From Planctomycetales bacterium (GTDB lineage: Bacteria > Omnitrophota > Gorgyraeia > Zapsychrales > Zapsychraceae): a DNA stretch of 41,925 nucleotides. The DNA is taken from the NCBI GenBank assembly GCA_005239675.1, contig SBBO01000039.1, positions 1 to 41,925 of the forward strand, read 5' to 3'. The stretch's first letter is position 1. The number at the start of each line of letters is the position of its first letter. Below are positions 20,155-36,329 of the stretch, piece after piece. The notes under the pieces are model-generated. The model did not search any database, had not been told where the DNA came from, and saw nothing but the letters and a program-made list of their open reading frames with translations. Made by a program: the position numbers and the translations under genes.

Positions 20155-21417
20155 ATGTTTATTTTCTATGACATATTCTTTTTCATCACCGCTTTGGTAT
20201 ATCTACCCTACTTGCTATGGAAAAGAAAATGGCACGGCGGGTTTTGGAGGCGATGCGCGATATCGCTCGGTGCGGTCGCAGGTTCCAGTACAAAAAAGAC
20301 AATTTGGGTGCATGCCGTTAGCGTGGGGGAGGTGCTGACTATTGTGCCGCTGGTCGAGAGCATCCGTCAGCGGTTTGCAGAATATCGCATTGTCCTTTCA
20401 GTGGTCACACCAACCGGCTATGAACTTGCTCAGAAAAGATTTAATAATACTCTAACTATTGTCTATGCGCCTTTGGATTTTAGCTGGGTTGTTCGTCGGT
20501 ACCTGGATGTGCTGAAACCGGTTATCTATATTTCTGCAGAAACAGAGTGGTGGCCCAATCTGTATGCATTCTTATATCATCGGCGAATCCCTATCGTGCA
20601 AGTCAACGGCCGGGTATCAGACCGGGCGTTTCAAAGATACCAGTTTATAGCCCCGCTGACACGCAAAGTGCTGGCGTGTATTCGATTATTCTGCATGCAG
20701 AGCGCACTGGATGCTGACCGTGTCATTGGCCTCGGTGCTGATGTTAGTCGCGTGCGGGTTATGGGTAATTTAAAGTTTGATTATACCCCGCCCTCAACAT
20801 CGTTTACCAAAGAAATACTGGGGTTTGATACGCAGGATCAACTAATCATCGCTGGCAGTACACATCCCGGAGAAGAACAGATCATGTTGGATATTTATGC
20901 AAGATTGGGCAATGAATTTCCCTCATTACGGTTGGTCCTTGCCCCGCGCCATGTGGGGCGTAGCGACGAAGTGGTTCGGTTGTGTCAGGCGCGTGGATTC
21001 TGTGCTCAAAAGTTCTCTGAGCTGCCCCCCACACAGGACCAGAGATCAGACTGTATCCTTATTGTTGATCGCATAGGATGCTTGAATGATTTATATAGTT
21101 TGGCGGAATTGGTCGTTATCGGTAAGACCTTTTGTGGACGCGGCGGGCAGAACATGCTGGAACCGCTTAGATACTGCAAGCCGACTCTCGTTGGGCCGCA
21201 TACTGAGAATTTTAGAGATATTGTTAGAATTTTCCTGAAAACAGGTGCGCTCATCGAGGTCAAGGACAAAGAGGAGCTCATGAACCGTATGCGTCGCTTA
21301 TTAAGCGACCCAAAGGAGCGCTTAGCTGGACTTACGGCGGCCCAAGAAGAATTCACGCGGCATCAAGGGGCAACAGTGAAGACGATGGAAGGAATTGCAG
21401 GGATATTGAACATATGA
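20155..21417 (+). CDS. waaA: 3-deoxy-D-manno-octulosonic acid (Kdo) transferase
   Basis: IWVHAVSVGEVLTIVPLVE, VTPTGYELAQKR, ETEWWPNLYAFLYHRRIPIVQVNGRVSDRA, GGQNMLEPLRYCKPTLVGPHTENF. Confidence 0.94.
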   Translation: MFIFYDIFFFITALVYLPYLLWKRKWHGGFWRRCAISLGAVAGSSTKKTIWVHAVSVGEVLTIVPLVESIRQRFAEYRIVLSVVTPTGYELAQKRFNNTLTIVYAPLDFSWVVRRYLDVLKPVIYISAETEWWPNLYAFLYHRRIPIVQVNGRVSDRAFQRYQFIAPLTRKVLACIRLFCMQSALDADRVIGLGADVSRVRVMGNLKFDYTPPSTSFTKEILGFDTQDQLIIAGSTHPGEEQIMLDIYARLGNEFPSLRLVLAPRHVGRSDEVVRLCQARGFCAQKFSELPPTQDQRSDCILIVDRIGCLNDLYSLAELVVIGKTFCGRGGQNMLEPLRYCKPTLVGPHTENFRDIVRIFLKTGALIEVKDKEELMNRMRRLLSDPKERLAGLTAAQEEFTRHQGATVKTMEGIAGILNI

Positions 21418-22487
21418 AAATGTTTTTTTATCGTGTGATCACTGATCAGGTTAGCGGGGCGACTGTCTTTATTTTAAAAGTCATTTTACGGCTTTTATCG
21501 TATGGGTATGCCGCAGGGGTGCGGACTATCGCTTTCATGTATCGTCAGGGTTATCGCAAATCATATCGCTTAAATCGGCCGGTCATCAGTATCGGTAATA
21601 TCACCGTGGGTGGCGTTGGAAAGACACCACTGGTGATTGCCCTGGCTCAGATGTGCCAAAGACATAATTTGCGACCAGTGATTCTTACCCGCGGCTATAA
21701 AGGGCTGGGGTCTTGCTTGGTGCATAGTGATGAGGTCTTGATGCTGCATGAGGTCCTGGGCGATGTCCCGATCCTGGTTGGCGCCAATCGCATCAAAAAC
21801 GCCCAAGAGTACCTTAGAAATAACGCTGTTGATGTCTTCATCTTGGATGACGGTTTCCAGCATTGGCGGCTCGCCCGAGACATGGATATCGTGGCCATTG
21901 ATGCAACCAATCCCTGGGGAAACGGTTATCTCTTACCGCGAGGAATACTGCGCGAGCCGCTCGTGGCCTTGCGCAGGGCCCATTGGATTGTCTTGACCAA
22001 GACGGATTTCAATGGGACGGATATCCCTGGGATACGCAATCGATTGGCCGCATTGGACTGTCCCCAGCCAGTAGTCCTGGCAGTGTATCGGCCCATAGAA
22101 CTTGTCAATTTGAAGTCGGGGACCAAAGGGATGCCAGAGATGCTACGTTCAAAGAGAATCTGTTGTTTTTCTAGTCTTGGCTCACCAGCCACCTTCGTGC
22201 AGACATTAATACGTTTGGGGGCAGAGATCCAAAAAATATTTAATTTTATTGATCATCATGCCTATAATAAAAAAGATATCCAACGAATTTTAGAATACTG
22301 TCGGGTTAATCATATAACCACCATCGTCACAACCCACAAAGATGCGGTCAAGTTGCTTGAATTTGCCACGGAGTTTAATCAGGCACAAGAAATAGAGTGC
22401 CTATTTTTAAGAATCGAAACGGTATTGCTGGAGGGTGAGGGAACTGATGCGTTCCTTAAACGAATCATTGATTTATCACAGCGTTGA
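21414..22487 (+). CDS. lpxK: Tetraacyldisaccharide 4'-kinase
   Basis: RPVISIGNITVGGVGKTPLVIALA, LTRGYKG, VFILDDGFQHWRLARDMDIVAIDA, LLPRGILREP. Confidence 0.95.
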   Translation: MKMFFYRVITDQVSGATVFILKVILRLLSYGYAAGVRTIAFMYRQGYRKSYRLNRPVISIGNITVGGVGKTPLVIALAQMCQRHNLRPVILTRGYKGLGSCLVHSDEVLMLHEVLGDVPILVGANRIKNAQEYLRNNAVDVFILDDGFQHWRLARDMDIVAIDATNPWGNGYLLPRGILREPLVALRRAHWIVLTKTDFNGTDIPGIRNRLAALDCPQPVVLAVYRPIELVNLKSGTKGMPEMLRSKRICCFSSLGSPATFVQTLIRLGAEIQKIFNFIDHHAYNKKDIQRILEYCRVNHITTIVTTHKDAVKLLEFATEFNQAQEIECLFLRIETVLLEGEGTDAFLKRIIDLSQR

Positions 22488-24423
22488 TGCTTTTGGGGTT
22501 TTGGTGCGGGTGCTGCCCTTGCCAGTTGCGCTGTTTATTGGTCGTCTCATCGGTCGCCTGGCCTATTATTTTGACACACGGCACAAGGCCCTGGCCTACG
22601 CCAATCTTAAGAAGGCCTTTGCCGATTCTAAGTCGCCTGCGCAGATTAAGCAGATCACGAAAGACCTATTCCAAAATTACGGCCAAAATTTAATCGATTT
22701 ATTGCGCATCCCATTGATTAATCCGCAGCGTTTTAAAGACACCATCAATGTAGAAGGGGTAGATCATCTTTCGCAGTGTCTCAAACAAGGCAAGGGCGCC
22801 ATCATGTTGGCCATGCACTTCGGGAGCTGGGAGTTAGCCAGTTTATCTTGCGCCATGCTACGATTACCGTACAAGGTTATTGTGAATCCTCAAGCGCGCT
22901 ATTCTTATCTGGACGAACTCCTCAATTCTTATCGCTCCTGCGGGGGTTATGTGGTTCTCTCTAAAGGGATGGGAACTCGCGATGTTGTCCGTAGTCTTGC
23001 GAATAATGAAGTCATCGGTATGGTCGTAGATCAGGGCGGCCGTGATGGGATTAGGGTACCATTTTTTGGCCGCACCGCTTCCATGGCAGTAGGCGCCTTG
23101 CGCATGGGATTAAAATGGGGGGTACCAATCTGTTTTAGCGTTATTCATCGCCAGGCCAATGGACGTCACCGGATGATTGTCCATCCGCCATTAGAGCTAG
23201 TCAATACCGGACGCATGCAAGAAGATATTAAAGCCAATCTGTCCAAGATTACGCTGATTATGGAGGATTATATCCAACGTTATCCTGCGGAGTACATGTG
23301 GTTTTATAAAATTTGGAAATATTCGGATCAGGCCTCGATTGTGATTTTAGACGATGGTCGGATAGGGCACCTACGACAATCCGAGTCCGTGGCGCGGATG
23401 CTGCAAAAGGCCTTGCTTGAACGTAACATCCGTTCTAGTGTCTGCACGGTCTCCATAAAATTTAAAAGCCCCCACCATCGGCATATTTTTGAAATCTTGG
23501 TGTGGTCATTTTTACCATGGTTCTATCAAGGACATGTGGAATGGCTCCAATGGTTTCTAACAGCAGATTCTTATAAACTTGTACGCCCGATGGCAGCGGA
23601 TTTTATTGTTTCTTGCGGGTCCTCCGTTGCCGCTCTTAATCATTTCCTTGCTAAGGATCAACGCGCTAAGAGCGTTACGATCCTCAAGCCCGCATTTTTT
23701 GGATACCAGCGGTTTGATCTGGTTATTTTACCACGCCATGATGCGATGCCATCCCATTCAAATGCGCGTGCACATTTGGCCTACACCCAAGGTGCGCCGA
23801 ATATCATTATTCCGGAATATCTAGAGGAACAATCCCAGGCGCTTTTGAACCGCTATTCGCATCTTAAGGACAATCACAAGCTCAAGATTGGAATTTTTGT
23901 TGGAGGTGATTCCAAGAATATTTTTTTAAGCGAGCATCAAATGAAGATATTGATTGATCAAGTAAGTGGCGTTGCCCAAGAAATTAATGCTGACCTATTA
24001 GTTACAACGTCACGGCGCACACCGCCGGCCGTTGAGCAATTAATCCAAAGGCGATTGCGTAAACACCCCCGATGTGCATTGTTGGTCCTTGCCAGCGAAA
24101 ATCAAATTCCTGAGGTTATGGGGGGAATCTTGGGGTTGTCAGACATTAACGTTGTCTCTGGTGACAGCATCTCCATGGTCTCAGAGTCGGCCAGCTCAGG
24201 GAAGAATACCATTGTCTTTATGCCACAGATAAAAGACAAATGGACTGGAAAATTCAATAAACACCTTGCCTTTATTGAACAATTAAGCGCGCAAGGGCAT
24301 ATTCTTGTTAGCGGCGTCGTGGATGTCGGCAGGGTCGTTTACGACATTGCCAAAGGGAAAATTCAAACCAAGAGACTGGATGATAACCCCGTGATCTTAG
24401 AGGCTGTACGGAAAATAATTTAG
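22447..24423 (+). CDS. Lipid A lauroyl/lysophospholipid acyltransferase (LpxL/HtrB-like) fused to an ELM1-like (DUF1022) domain
   Basis: N-terminal acyltransferase (AMHFGSWEL HX4E, GMVVDQGGRDGIRVPFFGRTASMAVGALRMGLKWGVP); C-terminal ELM1-like (VILDDGRIGHLRQSESVARML, FVGGDSKNIFL, LLVTTSRRTPPAVEQLI, VSGDSISMVSESASSGKNTIVF) in one frame. Confidence 0.87.
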   Translation: MRSLNESLIYHSVDAFGVLVRVLPLPVALFIGRLIGRLAYYFDTRHKALAYANLKKAFADSKSPAQIKQITKDLFQNYGQNLIDLLRIPLINPQRFKDTINVEGVDHLSQCLKQGKGAIMLAMHFGSWELASLSCAMLRLPYKVIVNPQARYSYLDELLNSYRSCGGYVVLSKGMGTRDVVRSLANNEVIGMVVDQGGRDGIRVPFFGRTASMAVGALRMGLKWGVPICFSVIHRQANGRHRMIVHPPLELVNTGRMQEDIKANLSKITLIMEDYIQRYPAEYMWFYKIWKYSDQASIVILDDGRIGHLRQSESVARMLQKALLERNIRSSVCTVSIKFKSPHHRHIFEILVWSFLPWFYQGHVEWLQWFLTADSYKLVRPMAADFIVSCGSSVAALNHFLAKDQRAKSVTILKPAFFGYQRFDLVILPRHDAMPSHSNARAHLAYTQGAPNIIIPEYLEEQSQALLNRYSHLKDNHKLKIGIFVGGDSKNIFLSEHQMKILIDQVSGVAQEINADLLVTTSRRTPPAVEQLIQRRLRKHPRCALLVLASENQIPEVMGGILGLSDINVVSGDSISMVSESASSGKNTIVFMPQIKDKWTGKFNKHLAFIEQLSAQGHILVSGVVDVGRVVYDIAKGKIQTKRLDDNPVILEAVRKII

Positions 24424-26534
24424 TGAAATCGATAACCATCCTACAAATTTTGCCGGAATTAAACGTTGGTGGCGTAGAGACCGGGACCGTTGATTTGGCT
24501 AATTATTTGGTTAATCGCGGTTACCGTTCCATCGTTGTATCCAATGGCGGTGAACTGGTGCCCGCACTAGAGAGCTCAGGGACAAAACATTATGCGCTTC
24601 CCGTTCATCAGAAATCCCTGCGGACTATGATCCGATCAGTTGCGGCATTGCGTAAGATCATCCAAGGAGAGCAGGTGGACATCGTGCATGCCCGCTCGAG
24701 GGTTCCGGCCTGGATCGCTTATTTCGCCTGCCATAAGACACAGGCAACATTTCTTACCACCTGTCATGGTTATTACGAAAATCGAATTTTTAGTCAAATC
24801 ATGGGGTGGTCGAAACTGGTCATTGTGCCCAGCGAAGTTATTGGGCGACACATGATCGAACGGTTCGGTGTTTCTCCCCGCAGTATTCGATGTATCCCCC
24901 GCAGTGTTGATTTAAAAAGATTTTGCCATCAACGGCCTTCTCTTGCCGGGAAACCATCGTATAGGGTGGCTATTATCGGTCGTCTTACGCCGCTTAAAGG
25001 ACACACGTTTTTCCTGCAGGCGATGGCCAAGGTTATCCGTACCCTACCTAATATCCGCATTTGGATTATTGGCGATGCGCCAGCTGGCAAACAATCGTAC
25101 AAGGCCGAGTTGCAACTTCTGAGCCGCCGACTGGGTGTTCATGGGCATGTGGAATTTTTGGGCAACCGCAGTGATGTGCCTGAGCTTCTCTCGCAGGTGG
25201 ATGTCCTGGTTCTGGCGACGGTAACCCAAGAGGCATTTGGTAGAGTCATCCTGGAGGCTCAGGCAGCTGGGGTGCCGGTCGTTGCGACCCGCGTTGGTGG
25301 AGTTGTGGATGTGATCGATGATGGTGTAACTGGCCTGTTGGTCGCGCCAAAGGACATAGACGAGATGGCAAAGGCTGTCACGCGGATTTTAAGCGATAAA
25401 AAGTTGGCAGGACATTTGGTCGATGCCTCGCGTACGAAGCTGGAGGCAGAGTTTACCTTAGAACAGATGGCCTCTAAGACGGTTGCGGTATACGAGGAAT
25501 TGCTGCGGTCGCTTAATATCTTGGTCATTAAGATTGGCTCTCTGGGGGATGTGGTCCTGGTGACCGCCTCCTTAAAGGCCATCCGCGAGAAATATCCTTA
25601 TGCGAAAATCTATTGCCTGGTAGGGAAGGAATCGCGCAAGGTCCTGCAGAACTGTCCTTATCTGGATGGCATTATTGTCGGTGACTTGAAACCCAGATGG
25701 AGAGGATGGATCCGCACGCTCATCCTTTCCTATAAATTGCGTAAATATCGTTTTGATAAAATTATCGACTTTCAGAATAATCGTCGCAGCCATTTACTTG
25801 CGTTTTTAAGTTTTCCACGAGAAAGTTATGGATATGATAATGGCAAGCTGGGAAACTTGTTGACGCACCCGTTGAAGGAATATCATAACGATATCCCTGC
25901 CGTGGAGCATCAGTTCCAACTGTTGCGCATGATAGGGGTATTGGCCCCTACGCAGGTTTCTTTGCAACTTTGGCCATCGGCCAAGGACCGCGAGTATGTG
26001 CAAGAACTTCTGGAGACGGAATGGGTGGGTAATGCTCAGCGAATCGTTGGGATTAATATCGCAGCGTCCATTAAGTGGCAGAGCAAAAATTGGCCCGTTG
26101 AATATATTGCCCGTTTATGCGATCTACTGGCAAGTCAGAATATCCGCACCTTGATAACAGGCATGGAAAAAGATAAACTGCTGGTAGGGCAGCTCTTAGC
26201 CGCCACCAAGTCCAAGCCTGTCAATTTTGTGGGCCGCACCGATATCTTGCAGTTAGCCGCTCTGATTGAGCGTTGCTCAGTCTATATCACGCCTGATTCG
26301 GCGCCGTTACATGTGGCAGCAGCCATGCGTACACCATTGATAGCTTTTTTTGGGCCTACGGATTCACGACGGCATCGGCCTCCCGCGCGGGACATGATCG
26401 TCCTGGAGAGAAAATTGGCGTGCGCGCCGTGTTACAGTCCCCAGTGTCTTATTTTAACCCATGCCTGCCTGCGTGAGATTACACCAGAAGAGGTCGTCCG
26501 CAAAGTGATCGAACTAATCCAGACCAAGCGATGA
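24423..26534 (+). CDS. GT4-family glycosyltransferase fused to a GT9-family (heptosyltransferase-like) domain (GTG start)
   Basis: N-terminal half: ILQILPELNVGGVETGTVDLANYL, IIGRLTPLKGHTFFLQAM, EAFGRVILEAQAAGVPVVATRVGGVVDVI. C-terminal half: NILVIKIGSLGDVVLVTASLKAIREKYPYAKIYCLVG, YITPDSAPLHVAAAMRTPLIAFFGPTD. Confidence 0.9.
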   Translation: MKSITILQILPELNVGGVETGTVDLANYLVNRGYRSIVVSNGGELVPALESSGTKHYALPVHQKSLRTMIRSVAALRKIIQGEQVDIVHARSRVPAWIAYFACHKTQATFLTTCHGYYENRIFSQIMGWSKLVIVPSEVIGRHMIERFGVSPRSIRCIPRSVDLKRFCHQRPSLAGKPSYRVAIIGRLTPLKGHTFFLQAMAKVIRTLPNIRIWIIGDAPAGKQSYKAELQLLSRRLGVHGHVEFLGNRSDVPELLSQVDVLVLATVTQEAFGRVILEAQAAGVPVVATRVGGVVDVIDDGVTGLLVAPKDIDEMAKAVTRILSDKKLAGHLVDASRTKLEAEFTLEQMASKTVAVYEELLRSLNILVIKIGSLGDVVLVTASLKAIREKYPYAKIYCLVGKESRKVLQNCPYLDGIIVGDLKPRWRGWIRTLILSYKLRKYRFDKIIDFQNNRRSHLLAFLSFPRESYGYDNGKLGNLLTHPLKEYHNDIPAVEHQFQLLRMIGVLAPTQVSLQLWPSAKDREYVQELLETEWVGNAQRIVGINIAASIKWQSKNWPVEYIARLCDLLASQNIRTLITGMEKDKLLVGQLLAATKSKPVNFVGRTDILQLAALIERCSVYITPDSAPLHVAAAMRTPLIAFFGPTDSRRHRPPARDMIVLERKLACAPCYSPQCLILTHACLREITPEEVVRKVIELIQTKR

Positions 26535-27631
26535 ATGTCCTTTTTTTAACAACTCATCTCAATGGCGGTGGGATCACGAGCTATATTTTGACGCTAGCCC
26601 AGGGGATGTGCCGTAAAGGGCTAGGAGTTCATGTTGCCTCCAGCGCTGGCAATAGGATGGTCGATTTTAAATCGTGCGGCGCGCACCATCTTTTGTTGAA
26701 TATTCAAACGAAATCAGAACTAAGCCCAAAGATTTATATGGCCTTACCGGAGTTAAGCCGCTATGTGCATCAACAGGCGATCGACATCATTCATACCCAG
26801 ACACGCGTAACACAGGTTATGGGTACCTGGCTTTCGATTATGACCGGACGGCCACACGTTACTACGTGTCATGGATTTTTTAAGAGAAGACTATTGCGAA
26901 AATTATTTCCCTGCTGGGGGAAGGCATCGATTGCTATTAGTCATGCGGTCGCAGATCACTTACGTTGTGATTGGGGGGTAGTTGAGCAAGGCATCCAGCT
27001 CATCCCTAGCGGCATCGACTTAAACCAGTACGTACCTATTACGCCAGCTGAAAAAAAAGAAATTCGTCGTAAATATAATCTTGGCGATAGCCCGATCATC
27101 GGCATAATTGCCCGCCTGTCTGAGGTCAAGGGACAGGATATCCTCATTGAGGCCATGAGGACGGTTGTTAAAGAATTTGCTACGACCAAGCTGCTCATTG
27201 TTGGAAGGGGAAAGACGGAAAAATCCTTGCAAGGCTTAGTTAAGGCAGCTGGCCTAGAGAACCAAGTGTTCTTTTATCCTGTCGTTCATACAACCGTTGC
27301 AATGCTATCGATGTTGGATATTTTTATTATGTCTTCGCGTCAGGAAGGGTTGGGCATCGCAATTATGGAGGCACAGGCAATGGGTCTACCGGTCATCGCA
27401 AGTAAAGTTGGTGGTATCCCAAGCCTTATCCAAGATGGCAAGACAGGTGTTTTGGTTGAACCCGAGCAACCACGTGCACTGGCAAAAGCGATCATCGGGT
27501 TGCTCCAAGATCCTAACCGGCGTGAGGCCCTGGGGAAGGCAGCACGAGAATTTATCCAGCGCGATCATTGTGCCACGACCATGGTGAATGATACATTAGC
27601 CTTGTATACACGGATGATGGAGACACCATGA
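26531..27631 (+). CDS. GT4-family glycosyltransferase
   Basis: FLTTHLNGGGITSYILTLAQGM, IIGIIARLSEVKGQDILIEAM, EGLGIAIMEAQAMGLPVIASKVGGIPSLI. Confidence 0.92.
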   Translation: MNVLFLTTHLNGGGITSYILTLAQGMCRKGLGVHVASSAGNRMVDFKSCGAHHLLLNIQTKSELSPKIYMALPELSRYVHQQAIDIIHTQTRVTQVMGTWLSIMTGRPHVTTCHGFFKRRLLRKLFPCWGKASIAISHAVADHLRCDWGVVEQGIQLIPSGIDLNQYVPITPAEKKEIRRKYNLGDSPIIGIIARLSEVKGQDILIEAMRTVVKEFATTKLLIVGRGKTEKSLQGLVKAAGLENQVFFYPVVHTTVAMLSMLDIFIMSSRQEGLGIAIMEAQAMGLPVIASKVGGIPSLIQDGKTGVLVEPEQPRALAKAIIGLLQDPNRREALGKAAREFIQRDHCATTMVNDTLALYTRMMETP

Positions 27632-28650
27632 TGAAAAAAATTTTAGTGGTCAACGCGAATTGGATCGGGGATGCCATCTTTTCATCACCTGTCTTTAGGG
27701 CATTAAAGCAAGCCTATCCGCAGGCAACGATCAGTTGCCTTGCTGAACCCCGTGTGCACGGGATATTAGAGGCGATTGCAGAAATCGATGAGATTATCCC
27801 TTATGAAGAGAATGGTCAACACAGGGCCTTGGGCGCAAAACTACGTTTGATTATAAACCTCTTTCAGCGACATTTCGATGCGGCCTTTTTACTCCACCGC
27901 TCCTTGACCAAGGCCTTATTAGTTTTTTGTTCCGGGATCCCGCATCGTATCGGCTATAACGCCAAGCACCGTGGTATTTTCTTAACCCACCAAGTTCAAG
28001 GGAGGCCACAGGAAAAAGTTCACCGCTGTGACTATTATCTACAGGTATTGGAATCGTTTGGTATTACGGTGGCTGAGCGCTCCACATCGTTGCGGGTTGA
28101 TCAAGAAGCCCAAAAGGAGATAGCAGGGATCTTGCACTGCCACCAAATTACCCCTACTACTTTTTTAGTCATTATTCATCCTGGTGGCAATTGGAATTTA
28201 AAACGCTGGCCTCCTGCCTATTTTACGCGCTTGATTGATCATTTGAATCGCGAAATGGATGTTCGGACAATTGTCACCGGGACACAAGATGATGCCTCCC
28301 TTATCCAAGCAATTATTGCCCCCTTGTCACAAAGACCGCTTGTCTTGGCAGGCAAGATTAATCTAAGACAATTGATCGCATTGATGAAGCGGGCCAATGC
28401 CGTTGTATCAGCAGATTCGGGACCGTTGCACATCGCCGCTAGTGTAGGCACAGCGACCTTGAGTATTTTTGGACCCACGGATCCAACGCTCACCGGTCCC
28501 CGCGGCACGGGCCGCGCTATTATCTTACGTCATGACATTGGATGTAACCGTCAGGCCTGTTATTATACGGATTGTCCTGACAATACCTGCATGCAGGCAG
28601 TAAGCGTAGCCGAGGTGATGGATGTTATCCGCTCGATCAGAAATTCATAA
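27628..28650 (+). CDS. waaF: GT9-family glycosyltransferase (ADP-heptose:LPS heptosyltransferase-like)
   Basis: KILVVNANWIGDAIFSSPVFRALKQAYPQA, VIIHPGGNWNLKRWP, VSADSGPLHIAASVGTATLSIFGPTDPTLTGPRGTG. Confidence 0.88.
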   Translation: MMKKILVVNANWIGDAIFSSPVFRALKQAYPQATISCLAEPRVHGILEAIAEIDEIIPYEENGQHRALGAKLRLIINLFQRHFDAAFLLHRSLTKALLVFCSGIPHRIGYNAKHRGIFLTHQVQGRPQEKVHRCDYYLQVLESFGITVAERSTSLRVDQEAQKEIAGILHCHQITPTTFLVIIHPGGNWNLKRWPPAYFTRLIDHLNREMDVRTIVTGTQDDASLIQAIIAPLSQRPLVLAGKINLRQLIALMKRANAVVSADSGPLHIAASVGTATLSIFGPTDPTLTGPRGTGRAIILRHDIGCNRQACYYTDCPDNTCMQAVSVAEVMDVIRSIRNS

Positions 28651-29617
28651 GATTTTGGTGGTGTCTTTATCCAACATCGGCGATGTTGTCCTGACATTGC
28701 CGGTTGTTGATATCTTGCGTAATGATTTCCCTGAGGCCCAGCTATCTCTCGTTGTCGGCCCCAAGGCACAGACTTTGTTTCAAGGCAATCCCCATATCCA
28801 CCAGTTACATATTTTTGACAAAAAACAACCCTTTTGGATAACGCTGTCTTGGGTCCTGCAGTTACGCGCGCAATCTTTTGATCTCGTTGTGGACCTGCGC
28901 AATACGGCAATTCCGTTTTTGATTTCTCCACGATATAGAACGCCTTGCTTGGTTAATCAGAACACACCGACGCATATGCGTCAAAAACATCTACAACATT
29001 TACGAACGGCCTACCCGTATACCTTAGAATCAAATAAAAGATACGCTGTTACGGTATCTAGCGGGGATACTACTTCCGTCCAGAAAACATTGACGCAGGC
29101 CTTTGGCGATTGCCCCCAATATATTGTGGTCGCGCCGGGGGCTGCCGATCAGGCCAAGCGCTGGCCTATCGATTGTTTTATAGAGGTGTGCTATTGGTTG
29201 GTAAAACACGATGATTGGAAAGTTGTCTGTGTGGGCGATAAAAATGATCGAGGAGCAGCAGAACGCCTCAAGCAGGTATTGATGGGCAATGTCGTTAATT
29301 TATGCGGACAGACGAGTCTGCTTGAATTAGCCGCTGTGCTCCAAGGCGCCTTCTTGGCCATTGTCAATGACAGCGCGCCCATGCATCTGGCAAGTTATTT
29401 AGATGTCCCCGTCTTGGCTTTGTTTGGCCCTAGCGATCCACAACGATATGGCCCTTGGGGGGCGAACGGTCATTACCTGCGCAATAATCAAGATTGTGCC
29501 GCTTGCCGCAGCCTTAAGGACTCTTATCGGCATACCTGTATGGAGGCCATCACCGGTCAAGATGTCTTGAATAGTTTTCATGTTCTTAGGAAAAAGGTTA
29601 TTTTAGCCAAGCCATGA
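28622..29617 (+). CDS. GT9-family glycosyltransferase
   Basis: KILVVSLSNIGDVVLTLPVVDILRNDFPEA, VVAPGAADQAKRWP, IVNDSAPMHLASYLDVPVLALFGPSDPQRYGPWG. Confidence 0.88.
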   Translation: MLSARSEIHKILVVSLSNIGDVVLTLPVVDILRNDFPEAQLSLVVGPKAQTLFQGNPHIHQLHIFDKKQPFWITLSWVLQLRAQSFDLVVDLRNTAIPFLISPRYRTPCLVNQNTPTHMRQKHLQHLRTAYPYTLESNKRYAVTVSSGDTTSVQKTLTQAFGDCPQYIVVAPGAADQAKRWPIDCFIEVCYWLVKHDDWKVVCVGDKNDRGAAERLKQVLMGNVVNLCGQTSLLELAAVLQGAFLAIVNDSAPMHLASYLDVPVLALFGPSDPQRYGPWGANGHYLRNNQDCAACRSLKDSYRHTCMEAITGQDVLNSFHVLRKKVILAKP

Positions 29618-30630
29618 ATCATTTTCCTCATATCCTTATTGTACGTACCGACCGCTTGGGGGATGTGGTCCTGACAACACCGGCTATCAAGGCCCTTAAG
29701 AAGTCTTGGCCGCAGGCCCGCATTGCGATTCTCGTGGGGGCCTCGACGCGAGAGCTTTTAATCGATAATCCTTGTCTGGATGAAATCCTCGTAGATGACC
29801 GCCAGGGCAGACATGCTGGGATAGGGGGATTCTTTAGGTTGGTATTAGACTTGCGGCAACGCAAGTTCGATTTGGCCATTATCTATCATACGAAAAAACG
29901 GACCAACTGGCTGTGCTTTCTTGCTGGAATCCCGCGTCGCATCGGCTATAAAAATGAAAAGGCCGGTTTTTTATTGACTGACCCTGTTCGTGACGAACGT
30001 CATCTAGGCCATCGGCATGAGGCTCAATATTGTTTAGACCTCTTGCGTCATCTTTCAATTCCGCCCAATCTTATTCTGGAAAAATCACTGCAGGGCTTGG
30101 CGGATGACGTGTATGTCGCTGTCAGCTCGGACGCCACAAAATGGCTGGAGGCACAATGTCGGACCCGGCATATTCAGCCCCATCAGCGAATGATTGCCCT
30201 CCACCCACAGGCCAGCGACCCGGCCAAAGAATGGCCTGTAGAACAATTTGCGGAATTGATTAATCGTGTTGTTCAACGGTATCCGAGTGTCATTGTTCTA
30301 ATTGGGTCTAAACGGACCGCAGAAATTTCCCAGTTCATTGCAAGGCAGGTGCGCGTGCCGATATGGGATCTAAGGTCGCAGACAACGGTTGGGCAATTGG
30401 CAGTTTTATTAAGGCGATGTCAGTTGCTCATCTCCAACGATTCAGGACCCGTCCATATCGCCGTGGGGGTAGGGACACCTGCTATCTCGATTTTTACCCG
30501 TAACTATCCGGGAATTAACCCTGAGCGTTGGCGACCGTTAGGGTCAACTTCTCAGGTTGTAAGCGTCCCGCAACCTATTACGATACAGTCAGTTATGGAA
30601 TCTGTTGACGCTGTATTTAAACTGTGTTAA
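29614..30630 (+). CDS. GT9-family glycosyltransferase
   Basis: HILIVRTDRLGDVVLTTPAIKALKKSWPQA, IALHPQASDPAKEWP, LISNDSGPVHIAVGVGTPAISIFTRNYPG. Confidence 0.88.
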   Translation: MNHFPHILIVRTDRLGDVVLTTPAIKALKKSWPQARIAILVGASTRELLIDNPCLDEILVDDRQGRHAGIGGFFRLVLDLRQRKFDLAIIYHTKKRTNWLCFLAGIPRRIGYKNEKAGFLLTDPVRDERHLGHRHEAQYCLDLLRHLSIPPNLILEKSLQGLADDVYVAVSSDATKWLEAQCRTRHIQPHQRMIALHPQASDPAKEWPVEQFAELINRVVQRYPSVIVLIGSKRTAEISQFIARQVRVPIWDLRSQTTVGQLAVLLRRCQLLISNDSGPVHIAVGVGTPAISIFTRNYPGINPERWRPLGSTSQVVSVPQPITIQSVMESVDAVFKLC

Positions 30631-30666: not shown

Positions 30667-31704
30667 ATGCTCCATAAAATACGGCTAAAAGATCGTATCT
30701 CTAAATTTTCCCGTCAAAGGATTCTAGTTCTGGGGGATATTATCCTAGATCGGTATATTCAGGGAAGCGCTTCGCGATTATCCCCTGAGGCTCCCGTGCC
30801 GGTAGTCCTGGAGGAAAGGTCGTTTTATACCCTAGGCGGCGCGGCGAACGTGGCGCATAATTTACGTAGATTAACCTCCGGGGTCACATTGGTAGGAAAG
30901 CTGGGGCGTGATCAGGAAGGACAAATCCTTAAGAAGACGCTCCGTCAACAAGGAATCACGACATATGGAATTTTTGTTGATCATCGCCTCCCCACGACCT
31001 GCAAGACCCGCGTCATTGCAGAACACCAACAGGTGGTTCGTATTGACCGAGAAAAGGTAGGCGAGCTGGAGGATGAAACAATTTTACGTAAAATCGTCGA
31101 TTTCGTTCGTAGGACCATCGACACTCACGATGCCATTATTTTGTCTGATTACGGGAAGGGATTGATTACCTCCAATTTGATCAATATCGTGCGAGATTTA
31201 GCCATAGCAAAAAGAAAGATTATCGTCGTTGACCCCAAGGTTGAGCACTTTGATTATTACCGCGGTGTCAGCGCAATTACACCCAACCTGCGAGAGACAG
31301 AAAACGCTATTCGTAATATCAAGATGACCTCCATGCTGCCGGAGACGCTAAAAATCAACAGTGACCGTTTGCGTACCAGTGAAGACATTAATTACGTTGG
31401 CATGGCATTGTTAAAATATTTGAATTTGGGTTCTCTTTTGATTACGCTGGGCGAGCAGGGCATGCGGCTTTTTGAACGAAATAAACCTGTGCTGTCTATT
31501 AAGACAAAGGCTAAAGAGGTTTATGACGTCTCGGGGGCTGGTGATACAGTGATTGCTACCTTTACCTTAAGTCTTGCTGCTGGCGCGACGAAAAAAGACG
31601 CCGCGTATTTGGCCAATTTAGCGGCAGGGATTGTCGTTGGGAAATTGGGGGCAGTTGCCGTGAGCAAACAAGAGCTTTTGGAGGCCCTGCAAAATGAGGC
31701 CTGA
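30667..31704 (+). CDS. rfaE1: D-glycero-beta-D-manno-heptose-7-phosphate kinase (RfaE domain I / HldE1-like, PfkB family)
   Basis: RILVLGDIILDRYIQGSASRLSPEAPVPVV, LGGAANVAHNLRRL, YDVSGAGDTVIATFTLSLAAGA. Confidence 0.9.
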   Translation: MLHKIRLKDRISKFSRQRILVLGDIILDRYIQGSASRLSPEAPVPVVLEERSFYTLGGAANVAHNLRRLTSGVTLVGKLGRDQEGQILKKTLRQQGITTYGIFVDHRLPTTCKTRVIAEHQQVVRIDREKVGELEDETILRKIVDFVRRTIDTHDAIILSDYGKGLITSNLINIVRDLAIAKRKIIVVDPKVEHFDYYRGVSAITPNLRETENAIRNIKMTSMLPETLKINSDRLRTSEDINYVGMALLKYLNLGSLLITLGEQGMRLFERNKPVLSIKTKAKEVYDVSGAGDTVIATFTLSLAAGATKKDAAYLANLAAGIVVGKLGAVAVSKQELLEALQNEA

Positions 31705-31720
31705 TCAACTAAGCGGTAAT

Positions 31721-32449
31721 ATGCGCGCTATCGGTGTCATTCCGGCCCGCTGGGCGGCAACACGTTTTGCAGGTAAAGTGCTGGCGCCGCTCAAGGGCAA
31801 GCCCATGATCCAGCATGTATGGCAACGCGCCAAACAGGCTCGCCATTTAGAAGAGGTGATGATTGCTTGTGATGATCAGCGCATCCTGCAAGCGGCCCAG
31901 GAATTCGGCGCCAAGGCGGTATTAACCGCCCCCACGCACACCTGCGGCACGGACCGTATTGCCGAGGCCGTGACTGGGCTGAAAGTAGATATCGTGGTCA
32001 ACATCCAAGGAGACGAGCCTCTTATCTATCATGACACCATTGATGATTTGGTGCAGCTTCTTGCGAAGGATCCATCGCTGGCGATGGCGACTGCGATCAA
32101 GGCGATTAAGACCCAAACTGAGCTAGAAGACCCCAATGTCGTTAAGGTCATTACGGATAATCAGCAATATGCTTTGTATTTTTCGCGATCAGTCATTCCT
32201 TATGATCGAGATCGTGTTGGCATAAAAAAAATTCCCTACCACCGGCATCTAGGTATTTATGCGTACCGAAAAGATTTTTTGATTCATTTCAGCAAGATGA
32301 AGAAATCATGGCTGGAGCAGGCTGAACAATTAGAACAGCTGCGGGCCCTTACTACTGGCGTTAAGATAAAGACGGTCGTGACAACGATGGAGACAATCGG
32401 TGTGGATACCCCTGAAGATTTGGCCCGCGTCGAGCAGCTGATTAAATAA
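31721..32449 (+). CDS. kdsB: 3-deoxy-manno-octulosonate cytidylyltransferase
   Basis: AIGVIPARWAATRFAGKVLAPLKGKPMIQHVWQRA, VVNIQGDEPLI, YFSRSVIPYDRD, GVDTPEDLARVE; start 31721 or 31694. Confidence 0.95.
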   Translation: MRAIGVIPARWAATRFAGKVLAPLKGKPMIQHVWQRAKQARHLEEVMIACDDQRILQAAQEFGAKAVLTAPTHTCGTDRIAEAVTGLKVDIVVNIQGDEPLIYHDTIDDLVQLLAKDPSLAMATAIKAIKTQTELEDPNVVKVITDNQQYALYFSRSVIPYDRDRVGIKKIPYHRHLGIYAYRKDFLIHFSKMKKSWLEQAEQLEQLRALTTGVKIKTVVTTMETIGVDTPEDLARVEQLIK

Positions 32450-32459
32450 TCTTAAAACG

Positions 32460-33287
32460 ATGAGACATTTAACGCGCGTTGTTCAGGTGGGTAGTATTAA
32501 GATTGGTCAGGGAAGTCCGTTGGCCTTGATAGCAGGCCCTTGCGTCATTGAGAGCTGCTCGATGGTCATTAATATTGCCCGCACCCTTAAGCAAATTACC
32601 AGCGAGTTGCAAATTCCGCTCATTTTCAAGGCCAGTTATGACAAGGCCAACAGGACATCGCTTCGCTCCTTTCGTGGTCTAGGCTTTATGCAGGGCCTGC
32701 AGATCCTCGCTGAGGTTAAAGCAGAATTGGGCTTGCCCATCCTAAGCGATGTGCACAATAATCATGAAATCGAGGCAGCGGCAAAGGTTTTGGACGTGAT
32801 TCAAATCCCCGCCTTTTTATGTCGACAGACGGATCTTTTGGTGCACGCAGGAAAAACACAAAAAACCATCAATGTTAAAAAGGGACAGTTCCTGGCTCCT
32901 TGGGATATGGAGCAGGTTGTGCACAAAATTACCAGCACAGGCAACAAAAAAATTTTATTGACGGAACGCGGGACAAGTTTTGGTTACAACACGCTGGTCA
33001 ACGATTTTAGGGCACTGAGTATTATGCGCGAGATTGGTTATCCTGTTGTCTTTGATGCGACCCACAGCGTTCAGCAGCCAGGGGGGCTAAAAACGGCTTC
33101 AGGTGGTCAGAGTCAATATATCCCTCTTTTGTCACGGGCGGCAGTCGCGGCCGGATGCGATGCGGTATTTATGGAGGTCCATCCCAATCCATTGAGGGCA
33201 CGTTCAGATGGTCCTAACATGTTGGCCTTGCGTAAACTAAGAGGATTACTCACGGACCTGCAGGCAATCGATAAACTTATTAGGTAA
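32460..33287 (+). CDS. kdsA: 3-deoxy-8-phosphooctulonate synthase
   Basis: LIAGPCVIES, FKASYDKANRTSLRSFRGLG, LSDVHN, QIPAFLCRQTDLL, ERGTSFGYNTLVNDFRAL, DATHSVQQPG. Confidence 0.96.
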   Translation: MRHLTRVVQVGSIKIGQGSPLALIAGPCVIESCSMVINIARTLKQITSELQIPLIFKASYDKANRTSLRSFRGLGFMQGLQILAEVKAELGLPILSDVHNNHEIEAAAKVLDVIQIPAFLCRQTDLLVHAGKTQKTINVKKGQFLAPWDMEQVVHKITSTGNKKILLTERGTSFGYNTLVNDFRALSIMREIGYPVVFDATHSVQQPGGLKTASGGQSQYIPLLSRAAVAAGCDAVFMEVHPNPLRARSDGPNMLALRKLRGLLTDLQAIDKLIR

Positions 33288-33307
33288 AGACACCCCATCG
33301 AGGATGT

Positions 33308-34267
33308 ATGACTATTCAAAAAGCTAAAGAGGTGATTGCGATAGAGTCCGAGGCCATCCGGGCACTGACGGGAAGAATTAATAAAGATTTTGTTGGAGCT
33401 GTTGATCTTATTGATAAGTGCAAGGGTCGCGTGATTGTCGCTGGCATGGGCAAGACGGGTATTATCGGCCGCAAGATCGCTGCTACCTTATCATCGACTG
33501 GTACGCCCAGCCTGTGGATGCACAGCATCGAGGCCATCCATGGGGATTTAGGGCAGGTGACACGCCAGGACGTAGTCATCATCATTTCTACTAGCGGTGA
33601 GACCGAGGAAACTAAACGATTGTTGCCGCTCATTAAAAAAATCGGCTCTCGTACCATTGCTATAACAGGAAACAAATATTCATCCTTGGCGAGACACGCA
33701 GACGTCGTCCTTGATGTCTCTGTCAAAAAAGAAGGATGTCCTTTAGGGCTGGCCCCCATGGCATCGACAACGGCAACGCTGGTGATGGGTGATGCCCTGG
33801 CAGCCTGTTTGATCGTCCGTAAGGGTTTTCGCAAAGAAGACTTCGCCTTTTATCACCCTGGAGGATCACTGGGCCGTAAACTTTTGTTGAAGGTCGAAGA
33901 TATCATGCGCACAGGCACCCACTACGCCAAGGTGCGCGAGGATATGAATGTCAAAGAAGTCTTATTTGCCATCACCCAGGCGCGGTGCGGTTCGGCCTGC
34001 GTTTTAAATAAAAAAGGGAGATTGGTGGGGATATTTACTGATGGTGATTTGCGTCGGCATCTAAAAATGGATACCGCTATTCTTCAGCGTCGAGTATCGG
34101 AAGTCATGACACCGCAACCCATCACGATTGTCCAGGATCACCTTGCTGCCGAGGCGCTTAATATCTTAAAAGAGAAAAGAATTGATGAGATACCGGTTCT
34201 GGATCGGCGCCGCAGGCTTGTTGGTCTGTTGGACGTGCAGGATCTACTAAGGGTCGGCTTGGTATGA
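33308..34267 (+). CDS. kdsD: Arabinose-5-phosphate isomerase (KpsF/GutQ; SIS + two CBS domains)
   Basis: VIVAGMGKTGIIGRKIAATLSSTGTPSLWMHSIEAIHGDLG, STSGETEETKRLLPLIK, FAFYHPGGSLGRKLL, CBS motifs (LVGIFTDGDLRR). Confidence 0.95.
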   Translation: MTIQKAKEVIAIESEAIRALTGRINKDFVGAVDLIDKCKGRVIVAGMGKTGIIGRKIAATLSSTGTPSLWMHSIEAIHGDLGQVTRQDVVIIISTSGETEETKRLLPLIKKIGSRTIAITGNKYSSLARHADVVLDVSVKKEGCPLGLAPMASTTATLVMGDALAACLIVRKGFRKEDFAFYHPGGSLGRKLLLKVEDIMRTGTHYAKVREDMNVKEVLFAITQARCGSACVLNKKGRLVGIFTDGDLRRHLKMDTAILQRRVSEVMTPQPITIVQDHLAAEALNILKEKRIDEIPVLDRRRRLVGLLDVQDLLRVGLV

Positions 34268-34788
34268 AGGCTATCTTAAAAAAAAAGATTCAAAAGATCA
34301 AGCTCCTGGTGATGGATGTCGATGGGGTGTTGACCGATGGGACAATCGCCCTCAATAACGAAGGAAGCGAGATCAAGCTTTTTAATGTCCAGGATGGATA
34401 TGGACTTGTTTTGCTGCGTGAGGCTGGCATTAAGACAGCTATCCTTTCTGCCCGGTCATCTGGTGCCGTCACTATCCGGGGCAAAGATCTTAAAATTGAC
34501 AAAATCTGCCAAGACGCGTATCCTAAGCAGGGTGTTTACCGGCAGTTGATTCAGGAATTAGGACTGACGGACGAAGATGTCTGCTTTGTGGGTGATGACC
34601 TGCCAGACTTAGCCGTATTGCGCAGGGTGGGGGTCGCGGTCGCGGTGCCCAATGCGGTTGGCGAGGTAAAAGAGGCGGCTCATTATATTACGAAAAGCCA
34701 TGGTGGCCGCGGGGCTGTCCGAGAAATAGTTGAGCTTATTTTGAAAGTTCAGGGTAAATGGGAAAAAATTCTTACTCAATTGGGATGA
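34264..34788 (+). CDS. kdsC: KdsC-family 3-deoxy-manno-octulosonate-8-phosphatase (HAD)
   Basis: LLVMDVDGVLTDGTIAL, GIKTAILSARSSGAV, CFVGDDLPDLAVLRRVGVAVAVPNA. Confidence 0.93.
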   Translation: MKAILKKKIQKIKLLVMDVDGVLTDGTIALNNEGSEIKLFNVQDGYGLVLLREAGIKTAILSARSSGAVTIRGKDLKIDKICQDAYPKQGVYRQLIQELGLTDEDVCFVGDDLPDLAVLRRVGVAVAVPNAVGEVKEAAHYITKSHGGRGAVREIVELILKVQGKWEKILTQLG

Positions 34789-34795
34789 ATCGTAT

Positions 34796-35626
34796 ATGAA
34801 GGCAGAATATGTCTTGATCGTTGCGTTCTCCATCCTGGCCCAGTCATCGATAGCGCTGGCCGATGACTCTTCACCCGCGCAACAGTTTCAAGGATTTAAT
34901 TTAGAAGGATATACGCAAGATGGTAAAAAATCATGGGTAGTTAACGGTAGCAAGGCTGACATCCTGGGAGATGTCATCCAGATTGCTGATGTGGATGCCG
35001 AATCTTACATGGATGAAAAAGTCAATCTGGTCTCGCAGGTGGGGACAATTAATCAGGTCAGCGGCAATATTCATCTAGAAAAAGACGTGGTGGTTACCGG
35101 TGAGCGTGGTGTTCGGTTATCCACGGATTCTCTGGATTGGGATCGCAACAAAGATCTGGTTCAGACCCAGGACCCTGTCACTATTACGGATAAAGACATG
35201 ACGCTTACCGGTCAAGGCATGCAGGCACACCCAGCCTTGAAGACCGCTAAAATCGAAAAGGACGTGAAGGTGGTCATGGATACCGCCCCTGCCCCAGAGG
35301 AGAGCAAGATTGTCACCATTACCTCTAGCGGTCCCATGACGATCGATCAGGCTAAATCCTATGCCGTCTTTGAGGACCAGGTAGTCGCCGCCCAAGAGGA
35401 TCAGACCTTGCAGGCCGACCGCATGGAGATATATTTTGACGAAGAGAAAAAACAGATAAAAGAAATGATTTGTACGGGCAACGTGATCCTTATTCGCGGC
35501 GAAAATAAATCTTTTTCGGACAAGGCCGTCTACGATGGGACACAGCGACGCCTGACTCTCTCCGGCAGACCCAAATTGATTCTATTGACAGAAGGAAACG
35601 ATGTCTTTACATCTCTTGGAAACTAG
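34796..35626 (+). CDS. Fused LptC-like and LptA-like LPS-transport protein
   Basis: Signal-peptide-like N-terminus; LptC-like KKSWVVNGSKADILGDVIQI..LDWDRNKDLVQTQDPVTITDKDMTLTGQGMQA; LptA-like ITSSGPMTIDQAKSYAVFEDQVVA..LQADRMEIYFDEEKKQIKEMICTGNV..YDGTQRRLTLSGRPKLI; followed by lptB. Confidence 0.8.
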   Translation: MKAEYVLIVAFSILAQSSIALADDSSPAQQFQGFNLEGYTQDGKKSWVVNGSKADILGDVIQIADVDAESYMDEKVNLVSQVGTINQVSGNIHLEKDVVVTGERGVRLSTDSLDWDRNKDLVQTQDPVTITDKDMTLTGQGMQAHPALKTAKIEKDVKVVMDTAPAPEESKIVTITSSGPMTIDQAKSYAVFEDQVVAAQEDQTLQADRMEIYFDEEKKQIKEMICTGNVILIRGENKSFSDKAVYDGTQRRLTLSGRPKLILLTEGNDVFTSLGN

Positions 35627-36329
35627 GGGCCTGGTCAAGAAATACAGTCAACGCCGTGTCGTGGACGGGCTGAGCATCACGGTTGGGCGATCAGAGATTG
35701 TTGGTTTGCTGGGACCCAACGGCGCCGGGAAGACCACCACTTTCTATATGACGGTAGGGATTGTTAAGCCCAATGAAGGTGAAATTTATTTTGACAACGA
35801 GAAGATCACCTACAAATCTATCCATGAACGGTGCCGTCTGGGCATGGGGTACCTGGCACAGGAGGCCTCTATTTTTCGGAAACTAACGGTGGAAGAAAAC
35901 ATTCTGGCTATTCTGGAGACGTTACCGATCGCAGCCAAAGAACGGAAAAAACGTCTGCAGTCATTATTGGAGGAATTAAATATTGCCCACCTAGCTAAGC
36001 ATAAGGCCTATACACTTTCTGGCGGAGAACGTCGACGCCTGGAAATCACACGGGCCTTGGTGACGAACCCGTCTTTCTTGCTGTTGGATGAGCCTTTCTC
36101 TGGGATTGATCCTATTGTCGTTGCCGAGGCTCAGGAGATTATTAAAAATTTAAAGTCCCGTGGATTGGGTATTCTTTTGACCGACCATAATGTGCGCGAG
36201 ACCCTTTCCATTACCGACAGGGCGTATTTGATTGCTGATGGCAAAATTATTATTTCCGGGACAGCAGAAGATTTGATCAATGATCCCGAGGCAAAGAAAA
36301 TTTATTTGGGAGAAAAATTCAGGATGTAA
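35601..36329 (+). CDS. lptB: LPS export ABC transporter ATP-binding protein
   Basis: LLGPNGAGKTTTFYMTVGIVKPNEGEI, LSGGERRRLEITRALVTNPSFLLLDEPFSGIDPIVVAE, LLTDHNVRETLSITDRAYLI. Confidence 0.96.
   Translation: MSLHLLETRGLVKKYSQRRVVDGLSITVGRSEIVGLLGPNGAGKTTTFYMTVGIVKPNEGEIYFDNEKITYKSIHERCRLGMGYLAQEASIFRKLTVEENILAILETLPIAAKERKKRLQSLLEELNIAHLAKHKAYTLSGGERRRLEITRALVTNPSFLLLDEPFSGIDPIVVAEAQEIIKNLKSRGLGILLTDHNVRETLSITDRAYLIADGKIIISGTAEDLINDPEAKKIYLGEKFRM

Follow-up and report, generated by a model that had tools for sequence, protein, structure and literature searches.

An LpxL-type acyltransferase fused to a KdoT-like ELM1 domain in the lipid A/core gene run of Omnitrophota

Introduction

Which step, or steps, of lipopolysaccharide (LPS) assembly would be carried out by a protein in which a lipid A acyltransferase continues, in the same frame, into an ELM1 domain? 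The question is raised by a gene in a 41,925-nucleotide stretch of DNA (contig SBBO01000039.1, hereafter the window) from a genome of the phylum Omnitrophota. The ELM1 domain has long been annotated after a plant mitochondrial protein, and a first-pass annotation of the window called its bacterial function poorly defined. This held true until recently and is now outdated, since Kdo transfer has been demonstrated for KdoT of Acinetobacter baumannii (PMC12856342).

When the ELM1-like gene 2903 of A. baumannii is deleted, a Kdo2 core is left (PMC10936431). In vitro its product, renamed KdoT, extends Kdo2-lipid IVA by a third Kdo (PMC12856342, December 2025) and suffices alone for this transfer. 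KdoT has been proposed to be an inverting GT-B enzyme with no essential catalytic base, in which the arginines of an SRRT motif, chiefly R180, place the donor; the substitutions R180A and R180Q impair function in cells, and H13 was reported as not conserved outside Acinetobacter (PMC12856342). Both families and the activity of this one ELM1 member are already known. A search of open-access literature on ELM1/KdoT and on Omnitrophota lipid A found the LpxL::ELM1 fusion described in no title or opening abstract lines, and found no Omnitrophota biochemistry or lipid A/core structure.

Results

One frame encodes an acyltransferase and an ELM1 domain

The first-pass annotation had read the gene as an LpxL/HtrB-like acyltransferase with an HFGSWE (HX4E) site, joined to an ELM1 domain from about nt 23330, and this reading was confirmed. 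The ORF is uninterrupted from the ATG at 22447 to a stop ending at 24423, with an in-frame GTG upstream at 22435 and purine-rich ggagggtgaggg 5' of the ATG. Both Pfam families score well above their curated cut-offs: Lip_A_acyltrans (PF03279) over residues 14-291 (E 1.4e-46, 159.5 bits against a cut-off of 22.3), with the HX4E site at H124 and E129, and Mito_fiss_Elm1 (PF06258) over residues 307-618 (E 8.4e-45, 153.6 bits against 27). Pfam places the C-terminal half in the ELM1 family and not in another, and its start, at about nt 23340, agrees with the earlier estimate. The halves meet without a long linker, the gap between the two Pfam matches being 3-7 aa in nearly all relatives (Table 1).

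Table 1. Features of the gene run and of the fusion gene in the window
Feature	Position	Strand	Basis
WaaA/KdtA Kdo transferase (GT30)	20155..21417	+	Pfam Glycos_transf_N 3e-57
LpxK, lipid A 4'-kinase	21414..22487	+	Pfam LpxK 1e-78
LpxL::ELM1 fusion gene, 658 aa	22447..24423	+	ORF, Pfam and conservation in phylum
N-terminal LpxL/HtrB-type acyltransferase domain, residues 1-291	22447..23319	+	Pfam PF03279 and alignment
Junction and first ELM1 strand, residues 292-306	23320..23364	+	Relatives' domain gaps; model strand 4-11
C-terminal ELM1/GtrOC1 (KdoT-like) GT-B domain	23353..24300	+	Pfam, AlphaFold2, Foldseek
SRRT motif, residues 522-525 (KdoT S178-R179-R180-T181)	24010..24021	+	Invariance in 90 fusions; KdoT alignment
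GT4::GT9 fusion, 703 aa	24423..26534	+	Pfam; neighbourhoods
GT4 and three GT9 (heptosyltransferase-family) genes	26531..30630	+	Pfam, NCBIfam
PfkB-family sugar kinase (HldE1-like), KdsB, KdsA, KdsD, KdsC	30667..34788	+	Pfam
LptC and LptA/LptD_N domains in one ORF, then LptB-like ABC ATPase	34796..36329	+	Pfam

The N-terminal half has in common with the LpxL/HtrB late acyltransferases (PF03279) a full-length family match, the HX4E site and a lipid A neighbourhood, and the fusion differs from them by its added C-terminal glycosyltransferase-like domain. It does not reach the NCBIfam cut-offs of the specific LpxL, LpxM and LpxP models (93.2 bits against 297.8 for the LpxL equivalog TIGR02207). 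A second, unfused LpxL-like protein is encoded in the same genome. At another locus (L120:1456-3369), an LpxL-type acyltransferase is fused to LptC and LptA/LptD_N domains in a protein of 638 aa.

The fusion gene lies in a packed LPS gene run

The first 41 nt of the gene overlap lpxK and its 3' end abuts the next gene, which places it inside a tightly packed run. Enzyme names given to this run are more specific than the Pfam families and derive from family and context combined. Read in this way, the adjoining GT4::GT9 protein is likely a second bifunctional core enzyme, the GT4 and three GT9 genes that follow are presumed core glycosyltransferases, and KdsB, KdsA, KdsD and KdsC would supply CMP-Kdo. 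LpxC is encoded elsewhere in the genome. Further along, the LptC and LptA/LptD_N domains are combined in a 276-aa ORF (34796-35626).

In the Acinetobacter setting of KdoT a GnaT-type GlcNAcA transferase follows, whereas a GT4 domain follows here, a difference of context and not a condition of catalysis. The GT4 half of GT4::GT9 was considered as a GnaT equivalent, but this found no support, no significant similarity to A. baumannii GnaT being detected.

LpxL::ELM1 is a phylum-wide trait

PF06258 is present in 357 of 384 Omnitrophota genomes. The first-pass annotation had proposed a survey of LpxL-ELM1 fusions; both domains were found in one ORF at 108 of the 123 Omnitrophota loci examined, two of the 108 being the window itself. 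The order WaaA-LpxK-[LpxL::ELM1]-[GT4::GT9] is conserved in the great majority of 60 flanked loci: the first gene recognised upstream is LpxK in 51, while in two more LpxK is fused to ELM1, and GT4::GT9 comes next downstream of the ELM1-bearing gene in 53. At the remaining seven loci no upstream gene was recognised, mostly because the contig begins there. Of 20 listed genomes with no ELM1 match, ten also lack WaaA; in the other ten, the WaaA contigs stop before or within the fusion, the exception being a second, divergent WaaA-like locus in one genome (G322). Assembly gaps could lie behind part of the ten WaaA-less genomes too. No match to the fusion was found in viral contigs. LpxL::ELM1 is a trait of the whole phylum and not an oddity of one genome. 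Directly upstream of one such fusion, WaaA and LpxK are themselves fused in an 811-aa ORF (L235:1623-4055).

At two loci from two family-level groups, the fusion partner of ELM1 is LpxK and not LpxL (L049:3891-6044, 718 aa, and L060:2389-4566, 726 aa). These proteins occupy the same place, between WaaA and GT4::GT9, and each of the two genomes has three free LpxL-like genes. The ELM1 domain is thus retained in the run even without an attached acyltransferase. In a quick tree built without bootstrap, both fall within a 47-row branch of mostly LpxL fusions (SH-aLRT 92), a placement that suggests, with moderate support, that LpxK::ELM1 derives from an LpxL fusion that lost its acyltransferase part. 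Free-standing Omnitrophota ELM1 paralogues (L013, L059, L080) also fall among the fusions. One free-standing ELM1 locus (L002, Omnitrophota genome G066) is 100% identical to another, L127.

Active-site residues are kept in both halves

Conservation was measured over 90 aligned full-length fusions, and the tree includes fusions from 41 family-level groups of the phylum. H124, E129, R163 and D195 of the acyltransferase half are 100% conserved, as are D303, Q311, H431, S522-R523-R524-T525, S574 and M577 of the ELM1 half, in which H308, D432 and E580 reach 97-99%. The ELM1 halves of the relatives are 25-54% identical to that of the window. Since active-site residues are kept over such deep divergence, both halves look catalytically competent.

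The window domain is homologous to KdoT by sequence comparison. In single comparisons, the two are 27% identical over 219 aa (E 1e-12) and an Omnitrophota ELM1 profile recovers KdoT at 4e-40. KdoT D8, H13, H109, D110, R179 and R180 align with D303, H308, H431, D432, R523 and R524, so that the window domain has every one of the six KdoT residues probed in the literature, SRRT included. The H13 equivalent is His in 65 of the 66 fusions that have a residue at that column, a position often occupied by Met in canonical ELM1 proteins. KdoT (GtrOC1) and the window domain also have in common the Pfam family, DGKAGH-like and HD motifs, nearby LPS core glycosyltransferase genes and a predicted GT-B fold. 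They differ in that KdoT is free-standing (296 aa, locus L124), whereas the window domain, at about 360 aa, is the larger of the two, is joined to an LpxL-type acyltransferase and is set in a run with LpxK and WaaA. The tree places KdoT with the canonical ELM1 proteins, where it joins three proteins of a Planctomycetota sample (SH-aLRT 99), and puts the fusions on other branches. Because of this separation the domain is named KdoT-like and not KdoT.

The ELM1 half has a predicted GT-B fold

AlphaFold2 was run on the window ELM1 domain with 29 distant relatives and gave a model with pLDDT 82 and pTM 0.83, in which residues 4-11 form the first strand and residues 52-87 are poorly predicted. Nearly all of the top 50 Foldseek matches in the PDB are GT-B glycosyltransferases and UDP-GlcNAc 2-epimerases, which have a GT-B fold (query-normalised TM 0.34-0.56). 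The prediction supports assignment of the ELM1 half to the GT-B class, the fold matches spanning many donors, and it bears out the GT-B resemblance for which the first-pass annotation had suggested an AlphaFold/Foldseek check. The best single match, above the bacterial GT-B enzymes, comes from respiratory complex I of Tetrahymena (chain 8b6f_A0), possibly a GT-B-like accessory subunit.

A sequence search of the PDB with the domain returned no homologue. Profile comparisons were weak for GT4 (56% probability, C-terminal region only), WaaA (18.7%, C-terminal region only) and GT9 (5%). WaaA/KdtA (GT30) is a GT-B type enzyme that transfers Kdo to lipid A precursors. The role proposed below for ELM1 is likewise Kdo transfer to a lipid A precursor, and WaaA adjoins in the run; it is, however, a separate gene here and not detectably of the same family by profile comparison.

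Discussion

A candidate bifunctional enzyme of lipid A and inner-core assembly

The first-pass annotation had suggested a role in lipid A/core assembly, and this is supported by the two families, the LPS gene run and the GT-B match. We propose that the protein works in this assembly at the inner membrane. Its N-terminal half would transfer a secondary acyl chain to Kdo2-lipid IVA through the HX4E site, and its C-terminal GT-B half would glycosylate that same molecule in its Kdo region. The most likely donor would be CMP-Kdo, yielding a third Kdo as in A. baumannii KdoT, with Arg524 of SRRT, the counterpart of KdoT R180, holding the donor in place. WaaA and LpxK would act just before the fusion enzyme, and GT4::GT9 just after. 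The substrate of Escherichia coli LpxL is Kdo2-lipid IVA. KdoT has this substrate too (PMC12856342), so one enzyme acting on Kdo2-lipid IVA is the simplest account, and the CMP-Kdo supply genes in the same run make Kdo a plausible donor. With moderate confidence, we favour a bifunctional enzyme that modifies one and the same Kdo2-lipid IVA twice, with a secondary acyl chain from one half and with an inner-core sugar (probably Kdo) from the other; both activities, the shared acceptor, the donor, the order of the steps and any coupling or channelling are what we infer from these comparisons.

Several points weigh against this proposal: KdoT stands apart from the fusions in the tree, the profile comparison with WaaA is weak, the downstream GT4 half shows no similarity to GnaT, and, as regards the acyl position served, the specific NCBIfam cut-offs are not reached and the genome encodes a second LpxL-like protein. 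The sugar may differ from Kdo, given that identity to KdoT is only 27%, which leaves the donor unfixed. A C-terminal half acting as an inner-core glycosyltransferase for another sugar (heptose, hexuronic acid or amino sugar), or at another position, would also suit the breadth of the ELM1/GtrOC1 family with its distant branches, the many donors covered by the GT-B matches and the ADP-heptose-type PfkB-family sugar kinase in the same run. Against it, the six KdoT residues are all kept, including the H13 that canonical ELM1 proteins often miss, and CMP-Kdo genes lie in the run; we regard a different donor or position as unlikely, though worth keeping in mind. Enzyme fusions can also supply a binding module, and plant ELM1 reportedly recruits a dynamin-related protein (cited in PMC10936431), so a non-catalytic ELM1 half that serves to bind or position Kdo2-lipid A, or to bring in the GT4::GT9 enzyme, may be envisaged. 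It is improbable, as even deeply diverged fusions all keep the putative donor-site motif and KdoT, a homologue that has these residues too, is active as a transferase (PMC12856342).

Doubt may also be cast on the other half, since its family covers acyltransferases that do not act on lipid A (a phosphatidylinositol mannoside acyltransferase is among the weaker NCBIfam matches) and unfused LpxL-like paralogues are present in the genomes. That the acyltransferase half acts on another lipid, or is inactive, is nevertheless very improbable given the complete conservation of H124, E129, R163 and D195 in the 90 fusions and a gene that adjoins LpxK and WaaA throughout the phylum. As to an artefact, in which an error of sequencing or assembly, or a frameshift, merged two genes, nothing was found in favour, and recurrence of the identical architecture in independent genomes throughout the survey leaves it a negligible chance and rules it out for practical purposes.

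Gene fusion is strong evidence of a functional link, and here ELM1 is joined to LpxL or to LpxK within the LPS run of the phylum. Its fusion to two lipid A enzymes gives support, independent of Acinetobacter, to bacterial ELM1 proteins as LPS inner-core glycosyltransferases. One molecule appears to perform two steps in building the outer membrane, which provides a concrete candidate enzyme for outer-membrane biogenesis in Omnitrophota. As a more tentative suggestion, which we put at somewhat below even chances, a single phylum-wide protein might couple late lipid A acylation to completion of a Kdo3 inner core before the core is extended; if true, a KdoT-type Kdo3 inner core would be a trait of the whole phylum.

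ELM1 proteins outside Omnitrophota

PF06258 was found in 16 of 199 genomes of a Planctomycetota sample, and matches to the window domain in 30 of 200 genomes of a Pseudomonadota sample (the phylum of a Skermanella locus). Of the 80 loci that a contig search with the ELM1 family alignment returned, most encode free-standing alphaproteobacterial proteins; with one sequence as query the search gave no matches. Outside Omnitrophota, no acyltransferase domain was found in the ELM1 ORFs of the loci examined from these two samples or of the 80-locus set. Canonical alphaproteobacterial ELM1 proteins (most of L132-L206) have the family and the SRRT motif in common with the window domain, but are free-standing, of about 300-340 aa, with no LpxL-like gene found within about 6 kb. 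Frames of 671 aa in two of the genomes from the 80-locus set were considered as further fusions; in the one inspected (L187), the extra length arises where the frame runs on, out of frame, across a carB-like gene. An ELM1 protein of 780 aa on a Pseudomonas plasmid (L125:3597-5939) has about 440 N-terminal residues without a Pfam match, and in one genome of the Planctomycetota sample (G519; L253 and others) two contigs carry a pair of ELM1-family matches each, four in all.
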